A DNA stretch of 64,000 bases, taken from Xestospongia muta. Taxonomy: Eukaryota; Porifera; Demospongiae; Haplosclerida; Petrosiidae. The notes below the pieces were generated by a model. That model did no database searches. It was not told the origin of the DNA and saw only the letters and a list, made by a program, of their open reading frames with translations. The position numbers and the translations under genes were made by a program. Positions 691 to 32,810 of the stretch are shown here, in pieces. Position 1 is the stretch's first letter. The number at the start of each line of letters is the position of its first letter. The stretch lies in contig OY848931.1 in NCBI GenBank assembly GCA_963693285.1, positions 687,001 through 751,000 of the forward strand. Reading direction: 5' to 3'.

Positions 691-730
691 GTCTTCAGCC
701 ACACCCACAATAAACCGACGTGTGTTCTCG
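691..730. promoter_or_regulatory. 40-bp gap between two divergent TRAF start codons
   Basis: The minus-strand TRAF ATG (690) and the preferred plus-strand TRAF ATG (731) face away from each other with only 40 bp between them. The two genes must share a bidirectional promoter or have overlapping 5' UTRs. No TATA box is evident. The plus frame stays open upstream to an ATG at 635, inside the other gene's RING-coding sequence, so that longer start is considered unlikely. Confidence 0.4.
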
Positions 731-2098
731 ATGGATATAGATGTTGAAATGCTTATTTTTTTGACTACTCCTCCAGATTATCTTCATCTCAAATGTCCAA
801 TATGTTTAGAACTGTTACTAGATGATCCTTATCTTGTCAGCTGCTGTGGACAACACTTCTGTGGCAGATGTATCACTAAACCTTCATTACTATGTTGTCC
901 TTTATGTGGAGTAGATGGTTACCAAAAAATACCAGACAAAAATCATCAAAGAGCCCTTCAATTTTTAAAAGTTCATTGTCTTCATTATCAAGAGGGTTGT
1001 ATGTGGGAGGGAGAATTAGGGAAGCTCAAGAGTCACCTTTCTAGAGATGGGGATTGTCGTTACGTGAAAACACCATGTATTCATCGGTGTGGTGTTTCAT
1101 TAACACATTATTTGCTGAAAGAACACGAAGAAGAGCAATGTCATAAACGTCCTGCTACATGTCAACATTGTAAACATTACACAACGACATGGGAGGATGT
1201 TATTTTTAAACATCAACCTGTATGTCCCGAGGAAGTCATCCTTTGCCCAAATACACATTGTGATGAAAAGTTTAAAAGAATTCTATTAACAGACCATCTT
1301 GCTCTATGTCCAATGGCAAAAGTGCAATGTGAATTTGCAAATGTCGGTTGTAAGTGGTCAGGTACTCGTAATGGACTTGCTAACCATTTAGATAACAATT
1401 TAAGACAACATCTAACACTTACATGCCTGGCTACTGCAAACAACTCTCAAATCATACAATCTCAACAGCTAGAGATAAAACAACTTACCCAGACTGTTAC
1501 ACGACAGAAGACAGAGCTTGAAAAACTTACTAAACAACTGGAAAGTTTAAATCAAAGCTCAAAAGGAGCAGCTGTAGTTTCATTGCCAGCTGTAAAATCA
1601 CCAGTAGCCACAGGTGCATCTAATAAAGGAAAAAATAAACCCAAAATTAAACCGCATTATGCGTTACATACTATAACATTAAGTGGTTTTCAAGCTTGTA
1701 AAACAATCAATAAATATATGACAACTGGTGGCCTGTATTTACATCCACCTTGTCAGTGTATGGAACTGCGTGTGTATCCAAACGGAATTGGTAAAGGTTT
1801 TAATTCTCATGTCTCTGTATTCTTACACATTGTTCCTGGTCAATATGATGATACATTGGTTTGGCCTTATCAAGGCTATCCAGTGGAGATACGTCTTTTT
1901 GATTCTATGAAACAAAAATCTCATGGAAAGATTATATTTTTTGATTCGAAAGCTGCTTTGGAAGCTCGTTCAAGGCCTTATACCAGTATTGGTTCTAAAG
2001 GTGTTGGGTTTGAACAGTTTGTTAGTAACCATGAAGTTCAGAGATATTTGTGCAAAGATCAACTTTACTTTGAGTTTGGGTACTCCTATGATGTTTAA
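731..2098 (+). CDS. TRAF-like RING/zinc-finger/MATH protein
   Basis: Single-exon frame of 455 aa from the ATG at 731; an in-frame ATG at 635 exists but overlaps the divergent TRAF gene. The RING is near residues 22-60 (CPIC, CCGQHFCGRC, CPLC). TRAF zinc fingers run to about residue 225 (CLHYQEGCMWEGEL, CIHRCGV, CQHCKHY, CEFANVGCKWSG). A Q/K/E-rich coiled coil follows (LEIKQLTQTVTRQK). The C-terminal third is a MATH/TRAF-C domain, recognised by the HVSVFLHIVPGQYDDTLVWP stretch and the final beta strand LYFEFGYSYDV. The likely role is trimeric cytoplasmic E3 ligase or adaptor (family knowledge). It is tandem to a close relative at 2259. Confidence 0.88.
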   Translation: MDIDVEMLIFLTTPPDYLHLKCPICLELLLDDPYLVSCCGQHFCGRCITKPSLLCCPLCGVDGYQKIPDKNHQRALQFLKVHCLHYQEGCMWEGELGKLKSHLSRDGDCRYVKTPCIHRCGVSLTHYLLKEHEEEQCHKRPATCQHCKHYTTTWEDVIFKHQPVCPEEVILCPNTHCDEKFKRILLTDHLALCPMAKVQCEFANVGCKWSGTRNGLANHLDNNLRQHLTLTCLATANNSQIIQSQQLEIKQLTQTVTRQKTELEKLTKQLESLNQSSKGAAVVSLPAVKSPVATGASNKGKNKPKIKPHYALHTITLSGFQACKTINKYMTTGGLYLHPPCQCMELRVYPNGIGKGFNSHVSVFLHIVPGQYDDTLVWPYQGYPVEIRLFDSMKQKSHGKIIFFDSKAALEARSRPYTSIGSKGVGFEQFVSNHEVQRYLCKDQLYFEFGYSYDV

Positions 2099-2258
2099 TA
2101 ACTTTTAATAACTGGCTTTATAATTGTTATTAATTTTTGTTGTTTATTATGTACTTCCGGATAATCTAATCTTGCAGACCCACGTGTAAAGAAAGTAGTT
2201 TTCATTTGCTGGCTGTGAGTGGTTGGGTGTAAAGAAAGTAGTGATTATTGATAACAGA

Positions 2259-3590
2259 ATGACGACTCAAGAAATCTCCCTTGATCCAGATCAGCTGAAG
2301 TTTGTTACTCCTCCTCCTGACTATCTTCAGTTAAAATGTCCCATATGTCTAGAACTGTTACTAGAAGACCCTTATCTTGTCAGCTGCTGTGGATATCACC
2401 TCTGTGGCAGATGTATCAAAAATATTCTCCACCAACCTTGTTCTCTTTGTAAATCTGTCTCCCTCCAGAATGTTCCAGACAAAGGATTCCAGAGGGCGCT
2501 TAGCTCTCTTTCAGTCTTTTGTTTACGCAAAGAAGAGGGATGTGTGTGGAGTGGTGAGTTGAAACAATTAAAGCAACATTTATCCAGAGAAGGTGATTGT
2601 GAATATATAGAATTAACTTGTAAACATGATGGATGTGAAGTAGTATTGTTACGATCTCTGTTGAAAGACCATGAATTAAAGTGTAGTAAACGACCAGCTA
2701 TATGTGAACATTGTAATATTTACCAGTCAACATGGGAAAATGTCCAGCACGAACATTTAAAGACCTGTCCTGACGTACTTGTTCCTTGTCCAAATGAATG
2801 TGAGGTATCTATAAAGAGGAGAGATGTGGATGACCATATTGCTCAAACTTGTCTTCTGCGTGAAATTAAATGTGAGTTTTCATTAGCTGGCTGTGAATGG
2901 TTGGGTGTCAAAGAAAACTTACCCAAACATTTGGATATATGTTGGAGGGAACACATATCATACATGACTTTATATTACTCCAAGGAAATGAAGAAACAAG
3001 ATGAAAAGATTATAAATCTCTCAAAACGTGTTGCAAACCTGGAGTTTGTTAATGGAGTGATTGATGATGTCAACTTATTATTTGAGAAAAAAATGATATC
3101 TCCAGCCTTTTCCATTGAAGATATTTTTATGCCATTTGCCATTGAAGATATTAGCCTATCTTTTACAGAACGTCAATTAGCATCATTAGATTTTGAAAAA
3201 ACTAAAGAAAATCTACAATTTGTAGTTGATCGATGGCATTACAAACGTTCTCACAATAACCTTCATCACAGCCCAGTGTTCCATCTTGATTCAATCTACA
3301 AAATGCAGGTAACTGTACATTGTAATGGCTATGGCAGTGGAAAAGGAAGTCATGTCTCTGTGTATGCCACTCTTTTGTCTTTCATCCCCTTTATGGGTGA
3401 CTTGGTGATAAGATTACGCAATCAGAGAACCGACAATCATTTAGTTAGAGAGATTCATTTTGATGAATCTACTCCACGACTTAAACAGGTTGGCATTCCA
3501 AAGTTTGTTGCTTTTCAACATTTAGACCCATACCTAAGATCTCGTGATGATGGCCTGCAATTTGAACTACCTCAAGTTACAATAATATAA
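2259..3590 (+). CDS. TRAF-like RING/zinc-finger/MATH protein, tandem paralogue
   Basis: Single-exon frame of 443 aa. The only upstream extension begins with TTG, so the ATG at 2259 (MTTQEISLDPDQ) is chosen. The RING (CPICLELLLEDPYLVSCC, CGRC, CSLC) is nearly the same as in the gene at 731, which marks a recent tandem duplication. TRAF zinc fingers follow (CLRKEEGCVWSGEL, CKHDGCEV, CEHCNIYQSTWE, CEFSLAGCEWLG). A short helical linker leads to a shorter, more diverged MATH-like domain (GSHVSVYATLLSF, then LQFELPQVTII at the C terminus). The lack of introns contrasts with the exon-rich neighbours. Confidence 0.87.
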   Translation: MTTQEISLDPDQLKFVTPPPDYLQLKCPICLELLLEDPYLVSCCGYHLCGRCIKNILHQPCSLCKSVSLQNVPDKGFQRALSSLSVFCLRKEEGCVWSGELKQLKQHLSREGDCEYIELTCKHDGCEVVLLRSLLKDHELKCSKRPAICEHCNIYQSTWENVQHEHLKTCPDVLVPCPNECEVSIKRRDVDDHIAQTCLLREIKCEFSLAGCEWLGVKENLPKHLDICWREHISYMTLYYSKEMKKQDEKIINLSKRVANLEFVNGVIDDVNLLFEKKMISPAFSIEDIFMPFAIEDISLSFTERQLASLDFEKTKENLQFVVDRWHYKRSHNNLHHSPVFHLDSIYKMQVTVHCNGYGSGKGSHVSVYATLLSFIPFMGDLVIRLRNQRTDNHLVREIHFDESTPRLKQVGIPKFVAFQHLDPYLRSRDDGLQFELPQVTII

Positions 3591-3693
3591 CTTCTATAAC
3601 ATGTTATATAGTTGAACTCAATTATTATGTAGTTATAATATGTTGTACAATAGACAATATTAAATAATTATGAAGTATAATTAACTTGTTTAT

Positions 3694-8046: not shown

Positions 8047-11000
8047 TTAGACATCTAGACCAAGATGTTTGCGTATCTCATTAGCTTTTGTCCTATTATT
8101 AACTATAGGTCCTTCAATGACAGAGATAACTGTCTCCCAGGTCACAGGAGATGACTGAGTACTTATCCAGCACTCAATCACTTTAGAAAGCTTGGTATTA
8201 TCACTTCCCATTTCATTTTTTATACTTTCCAAATTATTTTGATCAATGCCAAAGCCTAAACCAATATCATACCAATTGTTGCTGATATTAGCTAATAGAT
8301 TAAGTAGAACACTTTTTTGGTGGGCCTTGTTTAAGATAACAATGTTTACTTTTGGCTTTTTTCTCATTTCATATTCAAAGTGATCAGTGCTTGAAGTCTT
8401 TTCAGTTTTTCTCTTTGTACCAGCTTCTAAAATAATGTGGAGATAAAGAAAGAATGTATATTTATAATAGAGTACTTTGTTGATAACTTTGACTGGACAG
8501 CACTGATGTTTGATCACTTGCACTTTCTATAGAAATGACATGACATTTTAGTATGTGATGATGCATTGATGTACTTACTTTCAAGAAATTTGCCCAGCTT
8601 GTCTGCTAAATCTTTCTGCTGGATGTTGCGTGCTAACACTTCTTTTACCCATAGTCCAACATCTTCTGGAGTAAATATACCAGTATTCCTCATTGATTCT
8701 CTTCCCTCTATACTATTTAGAGAAGAGTGTCTTCCTTGTTTCAAAGAACAAAACTTTATTTTACAGTTGTGTGATCTAGGAGTATCACCTATTATTGTCT
8801 AGATAATAATGAAAATGATTGCTATCATGTCGTGAACACCTTACTTGTAATTCATCTTCAAACTGCATTTTCAACATTGGAAGTTTATGATCAGGACAAG
8901 TTGGTATCATGTCATCATCACATTTCTCTTCATATAATCTATCAGCACAAGTCAGGCATACTAAAATAGGCACTGAAGTGAAATCATTTTCAAAAATTTT
9001 CATCCATTCCTCAGCAGAGGCAGTATGAAATTTCCTTTGAATAGAAGAACATTAATAAAATTATTTGGTTGATGTAGATCTTACTCATATCCACAAACAA
9101 ATATCACAATTTGTGCTAAACCAACCAACAGTTTAGCTAGACCTCCAATGGACTCATCTCTGTCATCTACTCCTGGAAAATCAATCACACTTAATCCCTC
9201 TACAGAGTCATCCAAATTATAAATAAAAGGTACTGTTGTACGTGCTGACTGAGTAGTACCTTGTACTGTCTATAATTATAAAATGAAGGTCTTATTATAT
9301 GCATGATGAAATGTTACTTACTTGTCTTCTAAAGACTTTATTCACTAGTGTTGATTTCCCTGAGTTGACAAGTCCTATCACACCTACTGTAGTATAGCTT
9401 GCTAGACTCTCTCGAAGCTGATAAATATTCAATGCCCAAATAAGCCAATGAGCTAAAAGAGGTTGGTATGGTTTAGGAACAAGAGCAAGAGCAGTTTCTT
9501 TAAACTGTACATCCCAGTTATTAATAATGGTTTGGACATTGGTAGAAGTGGTAATATCTCGCTTTTTACAAATGTCAGCTAACTCTCGTTCCAGAGAGTA
9601 ACTGATGTATTGACTACTACAGGTGACTGTCTTATTCATAACTTGTAACAAGAATTGTAGTTTAGCATTATAACCTGTTAGTTGTTCTGGTATTTTGTCT
9701 CCTGCATCATTACTGAGAATCCCTTCGATAAATTTAGTTATCTGTATAACAATTGCCTGATTTTGTTGAGAAGATAAGATGTTAGCAATATCTTTTCCAT
9801 CAAGAGCAAACAGAGCCCATACTCCTACAGCACCAGAACTATCAGTTTGTAGAGCTTTGGCAGTATCTAGAGGATTGTTGACTAATGGAACTCGGATCTG
9901 TTGTTCCATAAACCCTCCTAACATAGTAACACAAGGATTCAAGTCATTTTCAATTATATTATTAACTTTTTGGAGCATATCACAATTTCCTGTAGCTATA
10001 CTTCCCAGCTTTACATCTTTGTGTCCTTTTGAAAGGGAAGAAAGATCTTGTCTGGCCTTACGTAAGATTTGAGGTAATGGTGTTAATGCACCAACAGCTG
10101 TATTGCATGATAATGCTTTTGAGATTGGGTACGCCTCTCCTATATTACAACCACTGATTAGAGTGAGGGCATGGTGTTGACTAAGTCGCTTAGCCTCAGA
10201 GTCAACAGCTTGAGAGAGAGATTTGAAGGCATCCACAACTGAGTCTCTGTGTGGAAATTGTGGAAGTAGAATTTTTTCATCAACTTTCTTATGAATTGAA
10301 GATTTGGGGTGGGGTTGATCATAGATTCTCTGGTCTCTGGTACCATTTTGATACTCTAATGGATTAAAATAAATACCATGTTCTTCATTTCTTTCCTTCT
10401 CATTGTCATCATCATTTGATAATCTATGCCTCTTAACTCTCTCTACATAAAACATATGTCCCCTGGTGGCTTGAATGTGCTCTTCAAGCCTGTTTGTTCC
10501 TTCCTTACAACCCCTAGCCATTAACTTAGATACTGGGAGTGACGATGTATGAGCTACACTTAATATAGCTTGAGCACATTTACAACCTGTAGCAAGAGTG
10601 GTGCAACCTGCAATAGCAAAACCTATGCTCTCCATAGGAACAATACGTGCAGCCTCTTGTAGAAACTTGATAATGAAATAGAAACGTTTGGTCATTTTAC
10701 CAGCTTGTACAGATGGAGATTGCTCAAGTAGAGCACTGAGAAAAGATAATGAAATAATTTGACTTGGAGTTTGCTTAGCAAGTTGACTCTGACGAAATGA
10801 TATTGGATCTGGTTCCTACAGAGGTACATAATATGATTTATTAATTACAATTGACCAACTCACATTATAAAAAACAGGAATATATTGGGAGAAGGTATTA
10901 GCAAACCTACTGTAAACTGTCACATGAACAACATCATCTCCATCAATATCTGCATAACTAAATGTGGCACTAACACTATGATTATAGCAAATTTGTTTTT

Positions 11001-12772
11001 CAGTAATATGTTTAGGAGATATTTCAATGAAGATTGATTTATTTCTAGATATTTTAACATCCAATATACTACAGAACCACAAATTATCTCCATTTATGAC
11101 AACTGCCAACTCTTGTCCATTAGGATGTTTATGTAGGTGAAGCTCCACCTTTGAAATTGTAGGTAAAAGAGATTTAACTTCCTGTATAGATTCTGATGTC
11201 TTGCGTGGGGGAATTTTATAACAATCAGGTTCCTTATCTAGAAACCCTCGTAGTACTTTCTTATAGTAATTCTCCATATTATGCTAAAACAATGTAAATA
11301 TTGTATAATTTGCTATCATTAGAAATACCTGTTGTATAGTTTCTGTCCCAATATGTGGCTCTAAATGTTGTACTTTTTTCCAGTTGATACCATCACTACT
11401 GCTTTGTATCAAAATTACATTGCCAATATAGTCATTAATGTTAAAGATAGTAAAATCAAGTATTGTCTGCAGATATTCTTTCATCTCCTGAAATAGATAC
11501 TTTAATATTAAAACAAATATTGTTGTCCTTACTTCATAATCTAACATTGTCAGTTGTTGTAATATTGATTTCTCTTTTTCTAACACAGTTAATATTGTCT
11601 ATAAGACAAACAAGAATTGGATATAGTCCTGAAAAGCCATACCTTTCTCTCTTCTGGTGTCATATGACTCATGTCAGAAAAAAATTTTTCGAATTCATTT
11701 GTTATGATGGCTAATAGAGAATTTTGGAATTGCTGAGGTTGTTGCTGAGTTGGCATGACTTGTGGGCGAACCATTCCAATAGGTTGAGGCTGTTGTTGTT
11801 GTCGTCGTTGTTGTTGCATTGGTCTGATTAAGGACTGTCCCATTTGTCCTGGTGGACCCACCAGATTATATATGCCTTGAGATGAAGGATACTGCTGACC
11901 AGGTTGTTGTTGTTGTTGTTGAAATTGCTGTTGCTGTTGTTGTAAATGTTGTTGTTGTAATTGTTGTTGTTGCTGCTGCTGTTGCAACTGTTGTTGTTGT
12001 TGAAATTGCTGTTGCTGTTGTTGTAATTGCTGTTTTTGCTCAAATCTGGTCAAAAACATCTAAAAGAACAACATTTAGTCACTAGTTAATATGAAATTCA
12101 TTAATACCTTTCTCTGTTCTGGTGTAGCCTTTTCAAGAACTTGTCTAAAACGTTGATTATTTTGTAGAACAGACAACATACTAGTTTGTTGTTGTATAGT
12201 AGTAGGACCTGATACACTTGTAGTAGCTCCACCCATCATTCCTTGACGTTGTTGAGGTTGTTGACCAATACCAGTGTTTATAAGTGTCTGCTGTTGCTGT
12301 ACTGGTTGATGAGTCATTGTTGGTTGCTGTACAAATTGTTGCTGAGCTACTGAAGATAGCAGCATGCTTGTAGTTAGCAGTTGTTGAGGTAGAGAACTCA
12401 TTTGCATTGATGTGGGTTGTTGCTGCAATGATTGAGGCTGGTTGAAAGTCTAGTAAACAAAGTCAGGTAATATTATAGTTAATATTCAATTCTTTAAAGT
12501 TCACTTACATTCTGTCCTACCTGAGTTTGTTGTTGTCCAACAAACATAGATTGTTGTGATACAGCTTGTTGTTGAGAGAAGGAAGGCTGTCCTATTGGTA
12601 TAGTAGATGAAGCAGGAGGATTACCTGGTAGAGTACCAGGTTGAGACATGGGTAGTCCTCCTTGGGACGAGGGCTGACCTAAAACTCCAGGTCCACCAAC
12701 TCCTCCAGGTACCTGCTATAAGTTGAATAGTGTGACATAAGACAAGTAATAGTTTACCATTCCCAGTGGCTT

Positions 12773-12822
<50 letters not shown>

Positions 12823-15800
12823 TTTGAGTAATGACTTGTTTCAAAGCAGCAATAAACCTCTCCTATACAACAGAGTGTTTAATGATATACTTTAGCATAT
12901 TCCTATAACTGACTTGTTCCAGTGGTATTAGTCCAGTAAATTGTCTTGATCTCTCATTCCATACCATAAAGAATGCTTTAATAGGACACTGTGTACCACC
13001 AGTAGGTACTAACTGAACAATGGCTACCTAGTGGAATAAGAATGAATTAAAATATTATTGTTTCATTTATACTTTTTTATTTTGAGGGTCATTGTTCATG
13101 AGTGCTCTCAACATCATTACATTTTGAGGAGGTTCCATAAATTGAAACTGGACTGTACGTAATGGAGTTTGGTTAATATGTAAAAGGGTATTGATAGCAT
13201 TCTAGCAGAGGACCAATATTATAAGACAATTTCAGTGTTATTATACTCACAAAGAAAGTCTTTGGGTAGACATTCATGGTGATTCTAGGTGGCCAAAGCT
13301 CTACTTTTCTAAAAAGTATGTAAGAGCATTGTCAAAGTTTGATTCTCAAACTCACATGTCTGGTGTTGTCTCTGGTTTGTTTGTTAACATATTAAATTGA
13401 ATTTGTCTTTGCTGCCATTGGTTACCTCTCTACAATAAAATGATATCATTAAAGACTCATTCTCATATCCACGTACCAGTTCTATGGTTTCTAATACTCC
13501 ACTCCAAATTTTTGACATCTAAACACACAGACAATATGTCATTCATGTTTGTCTAGTAAACTTACTGGTTGGACTCCACCCATAGGTGGAGCAATAAGTC
13601 CTTGGGTACTAATAGCTCCAGAGATTGATGTGAGAGGTGGTTCCGTAACAGGAGCAGATGTAAATACAGAACTAATTTGAGTTTGTGGTGGTAAAGTTAA
13701 AGGAACAGTACCCACTCCAAGAAATGGTTGTTGAGGGGGAGGTACAGTGGGTGTGGTACTAAAAGGGATGGTTTGTTCCAAGCCCCCTCGAGTTTTAGCA
13801 GCTCGTATAGCAGCCTGAATTATCAGTTGAGCATAGAAATCAGTATATGAACTGGAGGTTGAAAAACTTGAGATAGAGACATCTATTGTTGACTATGAAA
13901 GGTAGAAAAAGATATGTTTAGGGGCTGGGTAAAAAGGGATACTGGGGCACAAGTAGCAAGGATTGAAATGAGGTCATCCTTGTACCTTATATAGACCTAA
14001 ACCTAATGTGTGTTAGTATTACAATGTGGCTATTTGTGCCCATTCACATAGAAGAAAATAGAGTAAGTATTACCTAGATTACTAGAAGTGGGCAGAGAAA
14101 GATCTAAGTGAAATAAATATCTGGAGAAACAAAAAGCTCAAGAAATTGTCAACAGCCTAAGGGTAAATATCACATTTTCAAGGGATGACTGCTTCTCTAG
14201 GAAGTGGTACAAGTAGCCACATTGTTACTATAAATAGCTGACTACTTTCTATAAGGTGGTTATATCAGCTAGATCCTGATTTGCTTATCCACTTACCATG
14301 ATCTAACTGACTTAGCCTATAGTGTGTGAGACCTATCTGATAACCACCTTGGATGCCAAGCTCAAAGGAGCTTACTATTGTATTCATACTATAGTGTAAC
14401 GTAAGGATAAGGTTTGTTCTAATATTATGACTATCATGGAACATGTATATACATGTTAATGAGACCGTGGTCTATCATTTACTTAATTATCTCTTTGTAC
14501 TTAAGATACATTTATGATATACCCCATTTGGCCAAAAGATCTTTAAAAACACATATGGATTACTCATCATTAAATCTGGTACTAAATCTTCTTTTACAAG
14601 GAAAAAGTGACATGACTGCTTGAATTTATGATACTCATTCATCACTCTATCAAATTGAAGTAGAGTAAACTCATTTATTATGCCAGAACAAAGTGCACTC
14701 CCAAACACAATACATGTAACATTTTGAAGAAGACTTTCTGCACTGAAATAAGGTAAATCCCACAGTTTTGCTGCAATATTGCATGCTATATAACCTCCGA
14801 ATGAAAATCCTGTATAATATTAATAATAAAAATTATTAATTAATTATTATAATACCTGTAAATATTAATCGCTTTCCTTCATTTAGCAATTTACAGAAGT
14901 ACCTAATTGGTAGGTTATTAACCTCAAAATGGAATGCTACACAATACATCAATGAAGGAAAAAGGTTATTATGTTTTATATTATTACTTACTTTGAAGTA
15001 TGCCACCCATATCTTCATCATTATCACACTGAAATGATGTATACACAATATTCCCTTGGTTTGCTATAAGTAATTTATTTTGATGAGACACTGACATAGA
15101 TATTTGATCAAATGAGTGTCCATACATTGACAAGTCTAATTGAGACTGGGAGACAAACAAGGCACACAGGCTAGCATGATAAACTGTATCCTTGGAGAAT
15201 AGAGGTGGGAGGGGCTCTGTTGTTGCTATATTATCATCATCAAGAGTAATTGGTTCATCAATACAACTGTTATGATTTAATTCCTTGGCAATCTCATCAA
15301 GTTTATCATAACACCAATCATTGATATCCATTGGAATAAGTGCATTCATTGTAAGATCATTTAACTGTTTCAATATTGTTTCCTTTGACAAACCCTCTTC
15401 TAATTTCTTTTGTATGTGTGTTTTAATACGACCTTTTATGTGATTAAGGGTTGTCTGACGATCTAGACCAGACTCGTTCAGGTCACTAGAATATACTTGA
15501 AGTGCAGTAGCTAACTGAGATAGGTGAGGATCAGAAAAGAGCTCATAAGGTTCCTCTATATTTGGAATACAACATGTAAAGGTATGTGTTACCATAGCAA
15601 TGAGTGCATACATAATTATGTTAGAGATACAAATCAGTTAGTCTTGTACCTAGACTACCACTCCCACTTGACAAAGGTAATCTATACATTTGCATGCTCC
15701 ATTTTCTTAAGACATAAGATACACACAATATTGAATCTTTGTGAATGAATGTTGTTATCATCTTGAAGTATTTGTTACTATACTTGATAAGAAACAAGAT

Positions 15801-17529
15801 ATCCACAGATAAAGGTCATCATTACAATATTAAAGAAAAAATCAAGCAAACATATCTATCTGCCTTTCATTTGAAGGGCATGATAGTCTGGGAGTGAGAT
15901 TATACAAATCAAGCTATTTATCCTAAACCATGTGTCATAGTTATGAATCCTATGATGTCATCAAACACCACTAAACAGATTCTATAACCATTTTGATAAT
16001 ATTAATGTCATTTATTAAAAGTCATGGAGCAAGGAAAATGGGGAAGAGCTACTTTGAATCAGTCACACCCATAATTGAGGTAAGGGAAAACAAATTCATT
16101 GGTTGCCATGTTAAAATATGGAGTTTATTGATTTAAGTGTTGCATACAATAACAGAATAAAACTATGTGAATGAACATACTGACATAATGAAATGCACTA
16201 AAGTGCTTAACCTCGCTGCAGTGGGCAGTATAGATCTATACTGCAGAGTTCAGAGTGCATGTACATTTAACATTCCATAATCTTAAAGGTATGGTAAATT
16301 ATTAATGGCTCAGCTTTACTCTGACAATAGTCAACTTACTGGCCAATTTGAAAAACTAATTGATCATAAGGCAGTAACAAGCAAATATCTTTATTCTTTT
16401 TAGCCTTCTCAAGTGACGTATACCAGACAAGAGATATCTCACGTGATGCGCAAGATGATTATTGATAACTTAGCATTTCTCTTAAATCAAAGGGAAAAAA
16501 GCTTTGGAGTTTAGTCCGTCTACTGGGTACTTTGCACTCTAATTGACAAAAGGTCCAATACTTTCCAACTTCTTAGTAAAAGTTAGTGATTCTCCAATGA
16601 CAGCTATGGTGCTAGTATTTTTAGTTCGCACTCAATGTATCGACAAAGATAACTGCCATAAGTTAGTAAAAATGTCATAACTTTCCAAAGAAGTATTTTT
16701 GCAAAACTTCTCACTTTAAAAAGTTGGAAAATGTCATAAGCTGTATGTAGGAGGTTTTAATTGAATTCTCGAGTCTTCAATGAAGCTGTGCTTTTTTTCA
16801 AAGGTTTTTTAGACTTTTAAAGCTTTTTGTTCGTTTGACGCTCATTTTACCAGTATTGTTAAGAAGTACAGAAGTTTTGCTACTATCCACTATAATTTGG
16901 TGGCTACCAGTGCCATGTTTGCTAAGTTAAAGAAATTCAAAGCCATTTGCCCGAGTAACAGACACACACACACACACTGACAGACTACAGTAACCCTCGC
17001 TATGCGCCCACACACAGCGAGATTAATAATAATGGATAGTCCAAAGGAATTATAAGACAGCCTGTTATTCCAGGTTGTAACAAATATAATTGGTGATGAC
17101 AATTTAGTGAATGGGGACACATATACATACCTTGTGCTATACTGTCTTCCTCCATGTCTTCTTCAGTAGATTTAGCTGTAGAGAAGTAAATTATTAATAT
17201 GATAAAGTTAATACTACTACCTCACCATACTCCTCCTCAATACTTTTTGCCACAAATTTTAAAGGAGTATACTTCTTAAATATATCTAATACTTGTTGAA
17301 ATACTTTGGGATCACGATTTTGGTGAACTTCAATATAAGCTTGTACTGCTTTTAATAAGCAGTCAACGCGATCTTTATCCTTCTGAACTTTATCTAACGT
17401 TCTCTCATCAATAACTTCAATTGAGAGGAGATCATCAGCAACATCCAAAGGGTAAAGCATTGCTTTCTTGATAGACGGTAGATGTTTGATAAAGAGTGAT
17501 GCTTCTTTGGCAAAAACACACTCAGACAT
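8047..17529 (-). CDS. Gene N1: predicted CARD-lipase-MED25(ACID)-GTPase-Death chimera
   Basis: Exons: 17529-17226 (CARD), 17175-17131, 15555-14992, 14936-14856, 14809-14523 (lipase-like), ten MED25 exons 13892-11643, then 11598-11533, 11487-11329, 11283-10864, 10815-9322, 9269-9085, 9034-8845, 8798-8579, 8526-8476 and 8426-8047. Every junction is in phase, giving 2086 aa. The lipase-like part has the nucleophile elbow GFSFGG and KEDLVPDLM. The GTPase has GLVNSGKS (G1), VIDFPGVDD (G3) and TCAD in the G4 position. The C-terminal 80 residues read as a Death domain (ITWETVI-like helix 5). A basic KRKTEK...KKPK stretch precedes it. CARD and Death imply homotypic signalling complexes; the true function is unknown. 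The alternative is two or three separate genes, but the MED25 and GTPase parts have no ATG-led 5' end of their own. Intron 2 carries a transposon-like insertion. Confidence 0.6.
11643..13892 (-). CDS. MED25-derived exon block in N1 (SD1-like, ACID, Q-rich)
   Basis: Ten exons: 13892-13566, 13518-13477, 13429-13356, 13308-13251, 13201-13073, 13027-12914, 12862-12758, 12715-12509, 12449-12108 and 12059-11643 (605 codons). MED25 hallmarks are IWSGVLE, ELWPPRITMNVYPKTFF, RTVQFQFMEPP, GGTQCPIKAFFMVWNERS and FTGLIPLEQ, which follow the human ACID domain in order. FKQVITQNK then leads into poly-Q. ACID is the MED25 surface bound by activators such as VP16 (family knowledge). The MED25 N-terminal VWA domain is absent and no in-frame ATG opens the first exon. 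The block begins and ends in phase 0, fitting the flanking lipase and GTPase exons. Confidence 0.75.
11905..12040. repeat. Imperfect CAG/CAA (polyglutamine) tract in N1 exon
   Basis: TTG/CTG triplets on the plus strand encode a Q-rich run of the MED25-type last exon, broken by F and L residues. N3 and N4 have a much shorter tract in the same exon. Confidence 0.8.
12773..12820. repeat. (TTG)n polyglutamine microsatellite in N1
   Basis: About 15 TTG triplets encode 14 glutamines right after the ACID domain. The matching exons of N3 and N4 have only six, so this tract expanded or contracted after duplication. Confidence 0.9.
13893..14522 (-). other. Intron between lipase and MED25 exons of N1
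   Basis: This 630-bp stretch has no convincing exon. It is well conserved with the same interval of N3 (38776-39414). It contains an inverted-repeat hairpin at 14253-14350. A GTAAGT donor-like site inside the hairpin loop leaves room for an unrecognised small exon. Confidence 0.5.
14253..14350. repeat. Inverted repeat flanking ~60 bp, N1 intron
   Basis: AAGGTGGTTATATCAGCTAG at the left is matched in inverse by CTATCTGATAACCACCTT at the right, with one 2-base offset. The structure is conserved at 39143-39238 and 53899-53994 in N3 and N4. It may be a small palindromic mobile element or an RNA hairpin within the intron. Confidence 0.55.
16207..17026. mobile_element. Non-autonomous TTAA-flanked element (piggyBac-like MITE candidate)
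   Basis: An 812-bp segment (16211-17022) is flanked on both sides by TTAA (16207-16210 and 17023-17026). Its ends form an imperfect terminal inverted repeat: CCTCGCTGCAGTGGGC against TCTCGCTGTGTGTGGGC. N3 and N4 lack it at this intron position. TTAA target duplication is typical of piggyBac-type elements (family knowledge). No transposase frame is present. It contains a perfect 20-bp palindrome at 16225-16244 and a short AC microsatellite near 16962-16977. Confidence 0.6.
16225..16244. repeat. Perfect 20-bp palindrome
   Basis: GCAGTATAGATCTATACTGC is its own reverse complement. It lies 15 bp inside the left end of the TTAA-flanked element, suggesting a subterminal hairpin. Confidence 0.9.
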
Positions 17530-17722: not shown

Positions 17723-18912
17723 TCAAGCATTGATAGACTCAGTAACCTCATGTTCTTGAGATTGAGGTACTACAGTGGTAGCAACAGGATCAGCCGTGGT
17801 GAGATCCTCCTTAGTTGGCTCATTACCACAGCTATTATTGCTTGAAGTGGACTGAAACAATGGATTACGTGCAGCCAACACTGATACATCATGTCCAGGG
17901 GACACAGGAGGCATAGTAAAGGTCTGAGGGGGTGGAGTCATTGGTGGCGGAGATATAGGTACTGGAAATGTGGTCACTGGAGGGATAGCCAAAGGTAGGG
18001 TTGATACCGGAGGAATTGGAGATGTTGATGACATAACAGACCTCGGTGGAATTGGTGGAGGGTCTGGGGAACCTTTTCCAACAAATTTGACCTGACGAGA
18101 TTGTTTAGATGTTCCAGTAGCAGAAGCAGAAAGGGGTGTATCTTGAGGCTCCTCAAGAGGTATAGGAGGTGGGGGTTTGTAGGTTTTGGGATGAGTCACA
18201 GGAGGTGGACGAGGAGAAACCCCCGTTTGATTAGCATCTGGATTAGTATGGATGTCAGCAGTGACTGTTGTAGATGAATGAGGATATGTGGTCACCGATG
18301 ATTGTTGATGGTGTGATTGAACGGGAGCTATCTTGTATTCTTCTGGTCCCTTAGAGGTTATCGGAAAAGGAGGAGGAGGGGTTGACCCTGAAGATGAGGT
18401 ATCTGATTGACTTATGTTTAAGTTAGGGTTAGTAGCAGTGATGACAGGTTTAACATTTAATTCTTTTGGTCTGACATAAGTATTCTTAGTTGCTTGTTTT
18501 TCCTTCTTTCTCTCTTTTATACCACTCACATTATTCAACTGAGATGCTGGAAGGTTATTAGGTTTGGAGGAAACAGGTCTAGGAAGAGAGTTAGGTGTAA
18601 ACCCAAGTCTCTTAGCACTGACATCATCCTCATTAAAAGTTGTCTATAAAGAGAGATACATCATATACAGCACACATAGACACATTAGCATATACTGACC
18701 TTTTTGTAAAGAGGGTTCTTGACCATCATGGTAGAGACTTGTTTATATTCACGACCAATTGAGTTGCTATAAATTTAGAGTCAGTTACTAAATAGTTTGT
18801 AATTTAATATTTACTTACTATTTTATATAAAGTGCAATCAAAATAATAACAACAACAATAACAGCTAAAAATAAGACACATATTAGGACCAAGATAGTTA
18901 GTTCACCTATGA

Positions 18913-18998
<86 letters not shown>

Positions 18999-19488
18999 CT
19001 TTAATAATTGTATGATACTCTTTACTTACCAGTAGTAAATATACTAACTTCTTTATCACTAGTGAGATGGGACGAAGAAAGACATGAAGAAGTCAATAAA
19101 GTAGACTCAACATCAAGAATTGAACCAACTACAACCCAATATTTACTAACTATTTCATGGCAACTGTTGCCATGGTTATCAGGACAGGTACACTTGAATA
19201 GAATAGATGATAACAGGAGATATAAGTAACTACAGTTGCTATGACTACATGACGACCCATAAGCTTGACCTAATATAAGTTAAAAAATTGATAACATACT
19301 TGTGATCTTGTCTATTGAAATAACAATAAGTCCTCTAGCTTTCCCTGCTCCCTTAAGCTTGTTAGAGTATATTGTATATCCTTTGTCTGATATGTCTATT
19401 AGCACATACAATTTGGTCATATGTGTCAAATACTGTAACTCCTAATGGATTATGGATATTGTTAGAAAAAGTTTGACGTATGCTTAGG
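17723..19488 (-). pseudogene. 3' fragment of an R-type YWTD receptor gene
   Basis: The region matches the last part of R1-R3: a decayed final YWTD exon (19488 to about 19310), the second EGF region, the TM exon near 18.85 kb, the NPLY exon, and an intact proline-rich tail ending at 17723. Most of the YWTD ectodomain is missing. The YWTD exon has lost an internal block, and the stalk exon near 19.07 kb has lost its Thr/Pro repeats. The tail frame is still open and very similar to the intact copies, so decay is recent or only partial. The 5' side is fused to a lipase exon at about 19489. Confidence 0.7.
18916..18996. repeat. (GA)n microsatellite
   Basis: About 40 GA units fill the intron between the stalk and TM exons of the broken R gene. 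The intact copies have only an irregular purine-rich stretch here. Confidence 0.95.
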
Positions 19489-20963
19489 TAGTGACTCAGA
19501 TTCAACTAGGTCTTTATCAATTGGTTCACTGGTACAACTATCGTTTTGATCTAATTCCTTAGTAATCTCATCCAGTTTATCATAACGCCAATCATTGATG
19601 TCCATTGGAATAAGTGCATTCATTGTAAGATCATTCAACTGTTTTGTTAATGTCTCCTTCAATAGTCCTTCCTCCAGTTTCTGACGAATGTGGCTCTCAA
19701 TATGAGCTTTGATGTGGTTGAAAGTTGCAAGACTATCAAAACCAGACCTATTCAGGTCATTGGAATATACTTGAAGTGCACCAGCCAACTGACACAAGTG
19801 TAGATTAGAGAAGATATCATAAGGTTGCTCTGTGTTTAGAAAACAACATGTGAAAGTAGATGGTACATAAATTCTGTTTACCCAAATAATGGATATGTTT
19901 ATGTTAAGAGCTACTTTAAAACCAGCCCAATTTAAATCTGGCCTGGCTCACTTTTTAATGATGACAATTCCACCCATGTAGAAAATAGTGTTATCTATAT
20001 TATAATTACATTAATACTTTTAGTTTAGTTGTTACTTGTTTGCAATAAATTCAAGTTATTTTAGTATTAGCTATGGAATAGTATTTTTTTAGTTATAGCT
20101 ATTTTAGCTGGCCTGAGATAGATTGTACATGCTCTAGATGAGGCTATGATATGATTTAATCTATATAATTCAAGAGGAGTGGATAGAGTGGTTAGCCATT
20201 CCCTGTCCATTCTTGTCTGTCTTATCTGTTATTACAGTGATGGTTGAAACCACAATAACTGGTTTACATGGTATTTTCTTGTAGTAAATGGCTGAAAGTT
20301 GGCTAGAATATATGGGATGTACTATAGCTCTATACATTAAAACTATAATTACAACCCACATCAACTATAATTGTGAGCTAAACAGAAAGGATTAATGTTG
20401 AAACAAAAGTTTGCATTGTATATTATTCTTTTAACTTTGCTTAAAAGTCAAGTAAGTTGTTCCACTAAAGCTGTTTATTTCCCTTAGAAGAGAAACTGAA
20501 CACAACTAATATAATAAGCAATTAAACAAAATTTATATACTTCCTATATGTGCATATACATGTGATTGCTTACCTTGTGTTTCACTGTCTTCTTCTGTAG
20601 GTTTAGCTATATAGAAAAGTAAATAATTAATGTGACGAAATTAATACTACTACCTCACCATACTCCTCCTCAATATTCTCTGCCACAAACTTTAAAGGAG
20701 TATACTTCTTAAATACATTTAAAATTTGTTGAAACACTTTAGGGTCACGATTTTGGTGAACTTCAATATAAGCTTGTACTGCCTTTAGTAAGCAATCAAC
20801 GGGATATTCATCCTTCTGAACTTTAACTAAAGTTCTCTCATCAATAACTTTAATTGAGAGGAGATCATCAGCAACATCCAAAGGGTAAAGTATTGATTCT
20901 TCAATATCTGGTAGATATTTGATAGAGGACTACTTCTTTGGCAAAAACACTTTCAAACGTCAT
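19489..20963 (-). pseudogene. Broken CARD-lipase 5' fragment of an N-type gene
   Basis: The CARD exon starts with ATG at 20963, but its frame hits a TGA after 20 codons. The rest of the CARD (20881-20627) continues in another frame, so the exon is frameshifted. The lipase-linker exon (to 19489) matches N2 (25945 onward) closely, then runs directly into R-gene YWTD sequence and stops out of frame. The intron between them matches the N2 intron at 25946-26697. This is a duplicate of the N2 5' end joined to an R 3' end by illegitimate recombination. Confidence 0.75.
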
Positions 20964-21202: not shown

Positions 21203-24200
21203 CTACAAATCAAGATGTTTGCGTATCTCATTAGCTTTTATCTTATTATTAACTATCTTTCCTTCAATGACAGAAATAACTGTCTCCCAGGTAACAGGAG
21301 ATGACTGAGTACTTATCCAACACTCAATCACTTTAGAAAGCTTGGTGATGTCATGTCCCTTTTCATTATTTATACTTTCCAAATTATAATGACTAATGTT
21401 AAAACCTAAACCGATAACATACCAATTGTTACTGATATCAGCTAATAGATTAAGTAGGTCACTTTTATTGGGGGCCTCTTTTAAGATAGCAATGTTTACT
21501 TTTGGCTTTTTTCTCACTTCATCTTCAAAGTAATCAATAATCAAAGTGTTTTCAGTTTTTCTCTTTGTACCAGCTTCTAAAATTATGTGGAGATAAAGAA
21601 AGAATGCATATTTATAATAGAATACTTTGTTGATAACTTTGACTGGACAGCACTGATGTTTGATCATGTGCACTTTCTATAGAAATGATGTTGACATTTT
21701 AGTATGTGATGATGCATTGATGTACTGACTTTTAAGAAATTCGCCCAGCTTATTTGATAAATCTTTCTGCTGGATGTTGCGTGCTAATACTTCTTTTATC
21801 CATAGTCCAATATCTTCTGGAGCAAATATACCAGCATTCCTCATTGATTGTCGTCCTTCTTCACTATCTAAAGGAGAGCGCTTTCTTTGACTCAAAGAAC
21901 AAAACTTAATTTCACAGTTGTGTGATGTAGGGGTATCACCTATTATTTGCTATATATATAAAGATGAAAATGATTGCTATCATGTCATAAACATCTTACT
22001 TGTAATTCGTGTTCAAACTGTCTTTTCAACACATCAAGCTTATGATTAGGACAAGATGGTATCATATCATCATCACATTTCTCATTATATAATTCATCAG
22101 CACAAGTCAGGCATACAAGAATAGGGACTGAAGTGAAATCCTTTTTGACAATTTTCATCCATTCAGTAGCAGAGGCAGTATGAAACCTTCTGAATAGAAA
22201 ATAACATTAGATAACTGTGTAATAACTATGTATGCACTAACTCTTACTTATATTCACAGACAAATATTACAATTTGTGCTAAATCAACCAGTAGTTTGGC
22301 TAGATCTCCAATGGACTCATCTCTGTCATCTACTCCTGGAAAATCAATCACACTTAATCCCTCTACAGAGTCATCCAAATTATAAATGAAAGGTACTGTT
22401 GTACGTGCTGACTGAGTGGTACCTTGTACTGTCTATAATTATAAAATGAAGGTCTTGTTATATGCATGATGAAATGTTACTTACTTGTCTTCCAAAGACC
22501 TTGTTAACTAGTGTTGATTTCCCTGAGTTGACAAGTCCCATCACTCCTACTGTAGTATAGCTAGCTAGACTCTCTCGAAGCTGATAAATATTCAATGCCC
22601 AAATAAGCCAACGAGCCAAAAGAGGTTGGTATGGTTTAGGAACTAAAGCAAGAGCAGTTGCCTTAAATCGTGTATCCCAATGAACTAGAATATCATCAAC
22701 TTTTGTATTTGTTGTTATTTTTCGCTCTTTGCATATACCAACCAGTTCTCGTTCCAAAGAATAACTAATATATTGACTGCTACATGTTACTGTTTTGTTC
22801 ATTCCTTGAAGAAGAAACTGCAATTTAGCATTGTAGCTTGTGATTTGTTCTCTAACTCTCTTTTTTGCAGCATTACTGCTAAGAATACCTTCAATGAATT
22901 TAGTTATCTGTATGACTAGTGCTCGATTTCGTTTAGAAGACAATATAGAAGCAATATCCTTCTTATCAAGAGCAAAGAGAGCCCATACTCCTACAGCACC
23001 AGAACTATCAGTTGTTTGTAGAGCTTTTGCAGTATCAAGAGGATTGTTAACTAATGGAACTCGGACTTGCTGTTCCATAAACCCTCCTAACATAGTAACA
23101 CAGGGGAACAAATGGTTTTTAATTATATCATTTACTTTATCAAGCATATCACAGTTGAGTGTAGCTCTACTACCCATCTTGTGTCCCCTTGAGAGGGAAG
23201 CAAGATCTTTTCTAGCATTATGCAAGATTCGTGGCAATGGTTTAAATGCATTAACAGCTGTAGCAGGAGATAATGCTTCTGAAATTGGATATGCTTCACC
23301 AATATTACGCCCACTGATTAGATTAAGAGACCCTCGGTAAGCTAACTTTTCAGCTCTGTGATTCACATCTCTTGATAAACGTTGAAAGTGATGTGCAATT
23401 AAATCAGGATCGTATTCATATAGTAATTTCTTTTCAAGAATAGGATTAACTTTAAGTGGAACTGAAGCAAGAAAGTGACTCTCTTGTGTAAATTCTGAGT
23501 CGATTCTTTCATTTTGTGATGAAAATAGTTGATCTTTCCATCTCTTTGTATATTTTCTTTGCACCATACCTTCTTCCCAATCTGTATGTGATGAGACATC
23601 AGAACATTGATAGACTGTTTGGTAGTGTAATGGTAATTCTTGTACTAGTGGATAGTATCGATAGTGTTCCTCATGAAAATCATCATCCACTATTGAAGAT
23701 GGATAGTAGTGATAAAATGATGCTTCATAACTGTGCTCCCTACATGCTTTACTGTGCAGATTGCATGCTTCACTATGGAGGAGACTACGTGCTCCTTCCT
23801 TACAACCATTTGCCATTAGCTTGGATACAGGGAGTGATGATGTATGAGCTATACTTAGGACAGCTTGAGCACACTTATAAGCTGGGACAGTAGTTTCAGG
23901 AGAACAACCTGAAATAGCAAAAACAATACTTTCCATGGGAACAATGCGGGCAGCCTCTTGCAGGAATCTGATGATGAGATTAAAACGTTTGGTCATTCTT
24001 CCATCTTGAACAGGAGATTGCTCAAGTAAAGCACTAAGAAATGATAACTTAATAATTTCACTTGGAGTTTGCTTAGCAAGCTGACTCTGACGAAATGATA
24101 TAGGATCTACTTCCTAAAATATTGAAAATATCAGTCAGTCACGATAAGTGTGTTGTAAGATATGGGTTAGTGCTTAATTATCATGTGTATGATCTTTGAC

Positions 24201-24706
24201 CATTAGTTCTATTACACTAACTCAACAGTGACAAAATTCGTTATGAGACTATAAAAATTGAACATGTTTATAATAATAAACTTACATTATATAACATAGG
24301 AATTTCTGTGGTTATAGGATCAGTAAACCTGCTATAAACTTTCACTGGTAGACGATCTGCATCAATTTGCTTACGAGTGAATGCTTGATTACGAAAAGAT
24401 TTGTTATAGCATATCTGCTTTCGAGCAACACGTTCAGCAGAGATTTCTATATTAAGGTGTTCACTTTCACATATTGCAATCTCTATACTGTCACAGAACC
24501 ACAAATTATCTCCATTGATAACAACAGCTAGCTCATGTCCATCAGGATGTTTGTGTACATGAAGTTCAATGTTTGAAATTGATGGTTGAAGAGACTTCAC
24601 TCCCTCTATAGAGCTCAAAGAACTATGTTGTGGGATGGCATAGGGTTCAGGTTCTTTTTCAAGGTAGGCTCTTAGTACTTTCAAATGGTACTCATTCATG
24701 TCATGC

Positions 24707-24748
<42 letters not shown>

Positions 24749-27086
24749 TTTAATCATAATTAACTCACTTGTTGCAAATTAGAAATATCCATATTTTGAA
24801 GCACAGTTGCTGTCAAGTATAATTCTTGTACTTGTAATTCTCTACAATAAATCCCATCATCTCTCTGTTCTATTATGTGTTTGTTTCCATGGTAGGATAC
24901 CATACTTGATGGACATTGCCTCTGTATGTGCTCTAAAGCAACTGTGTCCTGTAATATAGGCTAATAGAATTATGAATAATCTATTATTAAACAAACCTGT
25001 GTCTTTAAGCAGTGTTGAAGAACATCTATCCCAATGGAAGAGAAGAAATTCTGAATATAATCATCTTTTAAGTGAAAAGAGTGAAATGATTTCAAAATAT
25101 CTGGGAATTGGTGAATAGCTACTTCCAAGTAAGGCAGAGGGTCTGCACAAGGAGGTCCAAATATGATACATGCTACATTCTGAAGTAGAATATTAGTATT
25201 AAAAAATGGTGAACTCCATAGCTTTGCTGTAATGGAACAAGCTAGTAGACCTCCAAATGAAAAGCCTAATAAATTTAATATAATAATTTCAACACTTCAT
25301 TTCATTTTCTACCTGTAAATATCAGTCGCTTGCCTTGATACAATAACTCACAGAAATACCTTATTGGTACTTTTTTCTCTTCTGCTACACAGTTATCTAG
25401 GCCTTTTCTTATTACATCAATATTAAATGACGTGTACACAACATTTCCTTGCTGTGCTATAAACATCTTATGTCGATCAGATACTGACAGAGACATTTCA
25501 TTAAATGAGTGTCTGTGCAAGTAGTCATCTTTTAGATGAGGTTGTGAGACAAATAAGGAACACAGACTAGCATGATAAACTGTATCTTTGGAGAATAGAA
25601 GAGATGGTGACTCAGATTCAACTAGGTCTTCATCGTTTGGCTCATCAGGACAACTGTCATTTTGATCTAATTCCTTAGTAATCTCATCCAGTTTATCATA
25701 ACACCAATCATTGATATCCATTGGAATAAGTGCATTCATTGTAAGATCATTCAACTGTTTTGTTAATGTCTCCTTCAATAGTCCTTCCTCCAGTTTCTGA
25801 CGAACATGGCTCTCAATATGAGCTTTGATGTGGTTGAGAGTTGCAAGACTATCAAAACCAGACCTATTCAGGTCATTGGAATATACTTGAAGTGCACCAG
25901 CCAACTGACACAAGTGTGGATTAGAGAAGATATCATAAGGTTGCTCTGTGGTTAGAAAACAACATGTGAAAGTAGATAGTACATAAATTCTGTTTACCCA
26001 AATAACGGATATGTTTATGTTAAGAGCTGCTTTAAAACCAGCCCAATTTAAATCTGGCCTGGCCCACTTTTTAATGATGACAATTCCACCCATGTAGAAA
26101 ATAGGGTTATCTATATTATAATTACATAAATACTTTTAGTTTAGTTGTTACTTGTTTGCAATAAATGCAAGTTATTTTAGTATTAGCTATGGAATAGTAT
26201 TTTTAGTTATAGCTATTTTAGCTGGCCTGAGATAGATTGTACATGCTCTAGATGTGGCTATGATATGATTTAATCTATATAATTCAAGAGGAGTGGATAG
26301 AGTGGTTAGCCATTCCCTGTCCATTCTTGTCTGTCTTATCTGTTATTACAGTGATGGTTGAAACCACAATAACTGGTTTACATGGTAGTTTCTTGTAGTA
26401 AATGGCTGCAAGTTGGCTAGAATATATGGGATGTACTATAGCTCTATACATTAAAACTATAACTACAACCCACATCAACTATAATTGTGAGCTAAACAGA
26501 AAGGATTAATGTTGAAACAAAAGTTTGCATTGTATATTATTCTTTTGACTTTGCTTAAAAGTCAAGTAAGTTATTCCACTAAAGCTGTTTATTTCCCTTA
26601 GAAGAGAAACTGAACACAACTAATATAATAAGCAATTAAACAAAATTTATATACTTCCTATATGTACATATACATGTGTAAAGAGGTGATTGCTTACCTT
26701 GTGTTTCACTGTCTTCTTCTGTAGGTTTAGCTATATAGAAAAGTAAATAATTAATGTGACGAAATGAATACTGCTACCTCACCATACTCCTCCTCAATAT
26801 TCTCTGCCACAAACTTTAAAGGAGTATACTTCTTAAATACATTTAAAATCTGTTGAAACACTTTAGGGTCACGATTTTGATGAACTTCAATATAAGCTTG
26901 TACTGCCTTTAGTAAGCAGTCAACGGGATATTCATCCTTCTGAACTTTAACTAACGTTCTCTCATCAATAACTTCAATTGAGAGGAGATCATTAGCAACA
27001 TCCAAAGGATAAAGCATTGCTTTCTTGATATACAATAGATGTTTGATAAAGAGGGATGCTTCTTTGGCAAAAATACACTCAGACAT
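21203..27086 (-). CDS. Gene N2: CARD-lipase-beta-sandwich-GTPase-Death protein, no MED25 block
   Basis: Exons 27086-26783, 26730-26698, 25945-25313, 25265-24997, 24948-24769, 24705-24286, 24113-22485, 22432-22248, 22189-22000, 21949-21730, 21676-21626 and 21576-21203 join in phase to 1495 aa. The CARD-like fold is at residues 1-101. The lipase-3-like fold (about 113-413) has GFSFGG near 324. A beta-sandwich (LAVVINGDNLWFC, about 474-613) follows, then a long helical region. The P-loop GTPase has GLVNSGKS at about 1139-1146, DFPG at about 1186 and TCAD at about 1246-1249. The Death domain is about 1405-1495. This copy shows the basic family architecture. Lipase catalytic Ser is present; a catalytic His is not evident. 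The role is probably cytosolic signalling or defence (inference). Confidence 0.72.
24708..24748. repeat. (ATA)n microsatellite in N2 intron
   Basis: About 13 ATA/TAA units lie in the 63-bp intron between the exons at 24769 and 24705, very close to the 3' splice site. Confidence 0.9.
25946..26697 (-). other. Intron 2 of N2
   Basis: This 752-bp intron separates the CARD and lipase exons. A 64-codon open stretch at 26284-26478 is shared with the broken copy at 20170-20364, but only through the segmental duplication. It has no recognisable domain and is not called a gene. Confidence 0.6.
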
Positions 27087-32266: not shown

Positions 32267-32810
32267 ACAGATCTATATGATCCACCCCTTAATATAAACT
32301 ATAAAGTTATTAACTGGAGTACTGATTATTTAACTATTACTACTAGTAATATAATCCCAGTTATTTGTCAGCTTACCACTTAGCGTGAAAACCAAGTCAC
32401 ACAGTTATTATTACATATATACACATAATATCATCTAATAGATTGATAATTCACTATTGTATAGCAAGTTCAATCTTAAAGATTATAGTCTACAATTTTT
32501 GAGCTAATGTATTGATGCTGTCTATATTAATATATATAATAATTATACTCTTTCCCAAGAAGAATATGTGTTATATGATTTTGTAGCTAGCTCTTTTCTT
32601 GAATTTCATTGATCAATCTCCCTGGATGTACATGTGTATGAAGGTAGTTCCATTTGTTCTCTGACTAAGTTGACCTCTCTTCAATATCAATCATCCATAT
32701 AAAAACTATTCTTTCAAACTATATTAAAAGTATTAGCAAAACTAGTTGTTAAGATAATGAAGGTACAAGTAATTATAAAGTGTATAAAATTGTAGTATAC
32801 TAATTAATTT
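32267..32810. other. Intergenic gap between N3 and R1
   Basis: This 544-bp AT-rich interval between the N3 stop and the R1 ATG should hold the R1 promoter and N3 3' UTR. No gene is visible. It is repeated at 47023-47566 and, more diverged, at 61704-62268. Confidence 0.6.

Follow-up and report, generated by a model that had tools for sequence, protein, structure and literature searches.

An in-frame genomic copy of the MED25 ACID region in CARD-like, GTPase and Death-like gene models of the sponge Xestospongia muta

The 64,000-nucleotide stretch of the Xestospongia muta genome analyzed here (the window; C15:687001-751000, where C15 is contig OY848931.1, within a 158-Mb, 28-contig genome) contains a tandem family of genes, N1 to N5, some of which carry part of the Mediator subunit MED25. 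The coordinates of N1 to N5 are window positions. We rebuilt N1 from the sequence as a gene of 24 exons on the minus strand (17529-8047), with all of its introns being GT-AG (23/23) and a single open frame encoding 2086 amino acids. Its parts, in the order of transcription, are as follows.

17226-17529, minus strand: exon 1, with the start codon and a CARD-like domain
14523-15555, minus strand: exons 3 to 5, a lipase-like alpha/beta hydrolase with GFSFG (Pfam Lipase_3, E = 8.5e-4, below the cut-off)
13893-14522, minus strand: intron 5, matched in N3 and N4 only and containing a conserved ATCATG/gtaagt
13728-13892, minus strand: start of exon 6, an older, diverged MED25 copy (STIDVS...PPPQQ; alignment score 81)
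11726-13766, minus strand: a recent genomic copy of the MED25 3′ part (ACID, then Q-rich), introns included, 91.5% identical to C15:675266-677344
12758-13518, minus strand: exons 7 to 12, the ACID domain, with poly-Q at its end
11533-11725, minus strand: end of exon 15 and exon 16, an older, diverged copy of the end of MED25 exon 17 and the start of its exon 18, with the intron at the same position
11329-11487, minus strand: exon 17, by eye the counterpart of exon X of N2 and N5; 3′ edge of the block
8476-11283, minus strand: exons 18 to 23, the host region with a GTPase domain (GLVNSGKST, DFPG; Pfam MMR_HSR1, E = 1.3e-8)
8047-8426, minus strand: exon 24, a Death-like domain and the stop codon

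The MED25-like block comprises exons 6 to 15 (13892-11643) and is in phase 0 at each end. When spliced, exons 6 to 12 matched positions 4-153/154 of the Pfam Med25/ACID profile (E = 1.9e-28), as well as human MED25 ACID structures (best E = 9.7e-9 among the PDB chains, the others being weaker). The original prediction had described ten in-frame exons of MED25 ACID order between lipase-like and GTPase exons, phase 0 at both ends and in-frame flanking junctions throughout the 2086-residue product, all of which the rebuilt model and the Pfam match bear out. It had also held that the block has no start codon of its own, which is incorrect: in-frame ATG codons stand directly before the ACID domain (model residues 531 and 537), and another forms part of the ATCATG/gtaagt in intron 5. 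N1 is indeed a carrier, as it had stated, but not the only one, as N3 and N4 have an identical gene structure.

The donor can be traced to the same contig. A complete MED25 gene of 18 exons, encoding 1186 amino acids, lies on the plus strand at C15:671864-677406, ending 9.6 kb to the left of the window, and its protein contains both the VWA (E = 3e-63) and ACID (E = 2.9e-31) domains within the residues scanned (1-837). This is the separate, full-length, VWA-bearing MED25 for which a genome search had been suggested. A whole-genome search placed the ACID family at no fewer than four, i.e., at least four, places, all on C15, and the MED25 VWA family (PF11265) at one locus only, with two exon matches (C15:671879 and 673183) that both belong to the separate MED25 gene, in agreement with the predicted lack of a VWA domain in the block. 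A genome search with N1 exons 6 to 12 gave no additional locus beyond these, the matches listed being a lower bound. A protein database search with N1 residues 428-730 gave no match at E ≤ 0.001 among 4904 candidates limited to 0.55 to 1.75 times the length of 2086 amino acids, a range that leaves the result little bearing on ordinary MED25.

The N1 block was 91.5% identical in DNA sequence to the 3′ part of MED25 over about 2.1 kb, and the N3 and N4 blocks were about 94% identical over 1.94 kb and 92% identical over a further 0.2 kb, introns included in each case. Such identity to the genome's own MED25 confirms that the block inside N1 is real and rules out a chance match. The block has the ACID and Q-rich exons of MED25, together with its intron positions and phases. 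In contrast to MED25, which has a VWA domain, a long linker, and its own start and stop, the block lacks the VWA domain and the stop and is joined to GTPase and Death exons; the copied piece breaks off within the last MED25 exon, some 60 bases short of the stop codon. Since the introns were copied too, a retrocopy origin was rejected. What a phase-0 intron received is a genomic DNA copy of the 3′ part of MED25, i.e., the ACID domain and the Q-rich tail without the VWA domain or the stop; the resulting chimeric gene family is real, has clear bounds, and can be traced to its donor.

The recipient is best seen from the other members of the family.

21203-27086, minus strand: N2, an intact paralogue of 12 exons and 1495 amino acids without the MED25 block
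32811-41846, minus strand: N3, a paralogue of 24 exons and 2131 amino acids with the block
47567-56602, minus strand: N4, a near-identical tandem copy of N3, with the block
62272-64000, minus strand: N5, a block-free paralogue that is cut by the window's right edge, so that its CARD exon and lipase junction fall beyond it

N2 has the same CARD-like, lipase-like, GTPase, and Death-like parts, and a phase-0 intron separates its last lipase-like exon from exon X, after which the GTPase part follows; the N5 sequence permits the same junction to exon X. N1 exon 17 appears by eye to be the counterpart of exon X, with which it shares a Y-x-GN ... G-I/L motif. The intact, block-free N2 thus marks the host as an older gene with CARD-like, lipase-like, GTPase, and Death-like parts, which received the block in a phase-0 intron, most simply the one that separates exon X from the last lipase-like exon. 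The block was not found in N2, in N5, or in the more distant C9 and C1 relatives, in which there was no ACID match and the junction was inspected. In a tree of the large GTPase exon (7 rows, 6 of them different), N1, N3, and N4 formed one clade with 100/100 support. One carrier clade with block-free relatives is most simply explained by a single gain in the common ancestor of the three carriers, each of which keeps the block open in frame.

N3 and N4 are 99.864% alike over a 14756-bp unit (20 mismatches), so that the pair reflects either a duplication of recent date or one haplotype entered twice by the assembler, and the carrier genes number two or three accordingly. This likeness, as a possible false haplotype duplication, is also what speaks for the block having been misplaced by the assembler. 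We consider such an artefact very improbable, since N1 and N3 are several percent apart in most exons and introns of both the block and its flanks, both differ from MED25, and the block edges are common to the three loci. Separately, intron 5 was considered as a transposon that carried the block; this was not supported, as its genome matches were N1, N3, and N4 only, in a search that skips very common words.

The block consists of two layers. At the start of exon 6, alignment to MED25 scored 139 in N3 and 81 in N1, against maxima of 70 and 57 in 500 shuffles. At the other end, the sequence past the recent copy (NSLLAII..TPEERK/TILTVLEKEK) aligns to the junction of MED25 exons 17 and 18, its intron falling at the same codon, with scores of 61 in N1 and 67 in N3 (maximum of 500 shuffles each, 46). 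Alignments of the DNA concur on these older flanks, each of the four beating all 300 shuffles. The alignments thus show an older, diverged MED25 piece flanking the recent copy on both sides. The divergence of the block from MED25 in 150-column windows ranged from 0 to 13% in N1 and from 1 to 7% in N3, the last, edge-overlapping window being at 15% in both, and this patchiness is as expected of conversion tracts. The simplest reading is that an old insertion had its middle later overwritten by MED25, perhaps repeatedly, the direction of each exchange being unproven. The overwriting would probably have been ectopic gene conversion between loci about 20 to 60 kb apart.

Exon 6 differs in layout between the carriers. 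In N3 (38215-38775), this one exon contains a single MED25 piece twice in succession, as an old and a recent copy; in N1, the two copies are merged at a shared PFLGV repeat, an in-frame difference of 234 bp.

To look at coding constraint, we counted private changes, i.e., codon differences at which the other two of MED25, N1, and N3 agree. N4, identical to N3 in the ACID domain and one replacement apart over the whole block, was omitted. Private changes in the ACID domain were 9 synonymous and 5 replacement in N1 and 5 and 2 in N3 (together 14/7), and 7 replacements of 21 is low for a neutral fraction of 0.70 to 0.795 (p = 6e-4 to 6e-6). The remaining block, with 11 synonymous and 25 replacement changes (25/36), was consistent with neutrality and differed from the ACID domain (Fisher p = 0.013). 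The MED25 branch had 8 synonymous and 7 replacement changes over the whole block, with one of each in ACID. This pattern suggests constraint on the ACID domain and none on the rest of the block. Outside the block, the ratio of replacement to synonymous substitution rates (dN/dS) between N1 and N3 was 0.40 in the CARD and lipase parts and 0.40 from the GTPase to the Death part.

Insertions and deletions (indels) gave a similar contrast: those between N1 and N3 were multiples of 3 in 11 of 11 cases in exons 6 to 16 versus 5 of 27 in 22 introns (intron 2 omitted). Exon 15 accounts for 7 of the 11, mostly within or close to CAG runs, and exon 16 for 2, which compensate each other. When all 24 exons are counted, 14 of the 18 gaps were multiples of 3. 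In exon 24, which is outside the block count and differs by 26% between N1 and N3, 4 of 5 gaps were not multiples of 3; we take these as misalignment of a diverged exon. In a separate alignment, the intronic rate predicted, for the coding part, 6.8 frame-breaking indels between MED25 and N3 (p = 0.001) and 3.6 between MED25 and N1 (p = 0.027), and none were seen. These counts bear on whether the block is a passenger, a recent segmental copy with no function of its own that is open because it is young and refreshed by MED25 conversion. The middle of the block is only 0 to 5% from MED25, its linker and Q-rich parts look neutral, and dN/dS between N1 and N3 reached 1.26 over 82 codons spanning the older 3′ piece and exon 17, so that this joint shows no constraint. 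A passenger is nevertheless unlikely in our view, given that the older MED25 flanks show an insertion predating the recent copy, the ACID changes are biased to synonymous ones, and the expected frame breaks are missing.

From the reading frames and the block-free N2, we infer a single transcript that runs from the CARD to the Death part. Judging by the N2 and N5 junctions, exon 5 would normally be joined at phase 0 to the exon that follows. On the other hand, the ATCATG/gtaagt of intron 5 (ATG at 14299-14297) has a donor score of 10.1, in the upper quarter of the 63 modelled, and is in phase with exon 6, and 99 of 100 bases around it are alike between N1 and N3. A start there would give an ACID-GTPase-Death protein without the CARD-lipase part, a serious candidate as an alternative or an addition. 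There could even be two products, the CARD-lipase one ending at the TAA at 14489-14487 and ACID-GTPase-Death being a second transcript or the product of an alternative first exon from ATG 14299. The strong, conserved, in-frame donor of intron 5 and the weak one of exon 5 fit this arrangement, and short CARD-lipase genes without a GTPase seemingly exist nearby. Against it, N2 and N5 are able to splice the same exon onward in the same phase, AATAAA is absent from intron 5 of both N1 and N3 (with one ATTAAA in N3), and, read by eye, 4 of the 11 codons between the donor and the TAA differ, each by a replacement. We regard two products as possible but the less probable arrangement. Under either start, the ACID domain would remain fused to the GTPase and Death parts.

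The host parts were identified with different degrees of certainty. The CARD-lipase-GTPase-Death label of the original prediction stands for the GTPase by its Pfam match, is favored by fold for CARD and Death, and is weak for the lipase: GFSFG is present, the Lipase_3 match in N1 is under the curated cut-off, and N2 residues 1-498 gave no Pfam match at 0.01. CARD was not seen by Pfam in five sequences, and Death was matched in one of three (E = 0.018). Profile searches of the PDB with CARD and Death alignments gave just weak, unrelated rows. Fold searches on predicted structures favor CARD and Death. Among the VIA rows for the Death part, the first 26 all came from Death-domain proteins (two carried no title beyond p75NTR intracellular domain), and Foldseek gave probabilities of 0.99 to 1.00 for its first four, yet with E values of 0.18 or more and a model of predicted local distance difference test score (pLDDT) 67. 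We therefore call the part a Death domain at the level of the predicted fold only. Neither NACHT nor LRR was found at Pfam E ≤ 1 in N1 residues 1-427, 428-690, and 1055-2086 (Q-rich residues 691-1054 were unscanned), and the host protein is not an NLR in the sense of NACHT or NB-ARC plus LRR. Nor is it a MED25 orthologue, having the ACID (PTOV) domain without the N-terminal, Mediator-docking VWA domain. It resembles PTOV1 in having ACID outside the MED25 context and without VWA, but PTOV1 has two ACID domains, N1 has one, and N1 has other large domains. PTOV1 is not known to have a CARD, GTPase, or Death part.

What such a protein might do is suggested by work on MED25. A review (PMC5355357) states that the VWA domain of MED25 interacts with Mediator and its ACID domain binds activators, and that PTOV1, a relative of MED25 with ACID (PTOV) domains outside Mediator, did not interact with Mediator and takes CBP away from MED25. 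In another paper (PMC12431651), NS1 of respiratory syncytial virus (RSV) is described to bind MED25 ACID with nanomolar affinity, and VP16 of herpes simplex virus (HSV), IE62 of varicella-zoster virus (VZV), and LANA-1 of Kaposi's sarcoma-associated herpesvirus (KSHV) are reported to act on MED25. The original prediction had offered two roles for the block, a direct link of cytosolic sensing to Mediator or a decoy. Because the block has no VWA domain and PTOV1, in that review, stays outside Mediator, the fusion should not sit in Mediator; the direct link is unlikely and not supported, and the decoy fits better.

We tentatively favor, at somewhat less than even chances, a death-fold sensor with an integrated ACID decoy, its block copied from MED25 and overwritten in the middle. 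The ACID copy would expose the face by which MED25 is bound by activators and, at least in the case of RSV NS1 in mammals, by a viral protein, so that a pathogen protein aimed at MED25 would presumably bind the copy too. Binding would alter GTPase/Death or CARD/Death assembly and lead to death-fold signaling, MED25 overwriting would preserve the likeness of bait to target, and the lack of a VWA domain would leave the fusion outside Mediator, with its ACID surface available elsewhere. Even if no pathogen is involved, binding and sequestration of activators, as by PTOV1, would be open to the copy. A sensor-like protein that bears a copy of a target has the layout of an integrated decoy, as outlined in PMC11781737. 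The duplication of a domain from MED25 into a putative sensor was seen here, with MED25 as a presumed pathogen target in this animal. The fuller claim, an animal counterpart of plant integrated decoys in which a death-fold GTPase sensor bears the activator- and virus-binding face of Mediator and the bait is renewed by repeated MED25 conversion, is more doubtful.

Several points weigh against the favored explanation. The fusion is inferred from genomic sequence and gene models. The exon 5 donor of N1 is the third weakest of the 63 modelled (score 3.56; 5.65 in N3), and dN/dS is high at the 3′ joint, as described above. Conversion can give changes that arose in MED25 the appearance of being private to N1 or N3, which makes the constraint on ACID only suggestive, and for N3 by itself the count is 7 codons (p = 0.005 to 0.03). 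Most of the exonic indels fall within or beside CAG repeats, whose length varies in steps of three in any case. In addition, no other known domain was recognized by eye at the corresponding intron in the C9 and C1a relatives. The main functional rival is a sponge for the animal's own activators or a signaling adaptor, in which the ACID copy binds stress or immune activators and sequesters or relocates them upon death-fold assembly, with no pathogen involved. It gains from the sequestration of CBP from MED25 by PTOV1 in the cited review and from ACID looking like the constrained part of the block. By itself, it explains neither the MED25 overwriting nor the confinement to a tandem CARD-like/Death-like family, and it requires nuclear or shared cytosolic partners. 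We see it as a minority possibility.

If translated as modelled, N1 would be a natural fusion of the activator-docking domain of Mediator to GTPase, Death-like, and perhaps CARD-like parts; it would suggest MED25 as a target worth guarding in this animal and would extend integrated decoys to the transcription machinery. The locus would also be a case of target and bait within 70 kb of each other, apparently exchanging sequence. KIX is another activator-binding coactivator domain. A sponge NLR with a KIX domain from Dysidea avara, listed among NLR architectures in a figure legend (PMC12909245), is a possible parallel, with a different domain and a different receptor class. Integrated-decoy receptors, such as plant NLRs with integrated domains (NLR-IDs) and mammalian NLRP1B (the latter as presented in PMC11781737), likewise have a target-like domain attached to a sensor. 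N1 differs from them in lacking NACHT/LRR in the pieces scanned, in that a Mediator subunit would be the target, and in having no known effector. Among the listed titles and opening lines of abstracts on MED25, decoys, and domain combinations, there was no MED25-ACID/death-fold fusion; 'not described' is a weak statement.

The neighborhood contains further related sequences. Short CARD-like plus lipase-like genes, apparently without GTPase or Death parts, lie at 30572-32272 (between N2 and N3), about 45380-46998 (between N3 and N4), and about 60140-61697 (between N4 and N5), and their CARD is about 44% identical to that of N1. Between N1 and N2, 19462-20929 (minus strand) holds extra partial CARD and lipase-like exons of an apparently truncated paralogue. 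A decayed copy of the GTPase exons with several stop codons was found at C1:10422896-10423075 and adjoining sequence. Nearly identical proline-rich reading frames at 17723-18643 and 27271-28191 look by eye like the tails of receptor-like genes, to which LDL-receptor-type (YWTD/EGF-like) exons at 28932-30530 also belong, and these receptor-like genes and the death-fold genes have seemingly been duplicated together. Finally, reading frames with what by eye are RING/TRAF-type zinc fingers are repeated at window positions 1-3620 and from about C15:677590, beside MED25.

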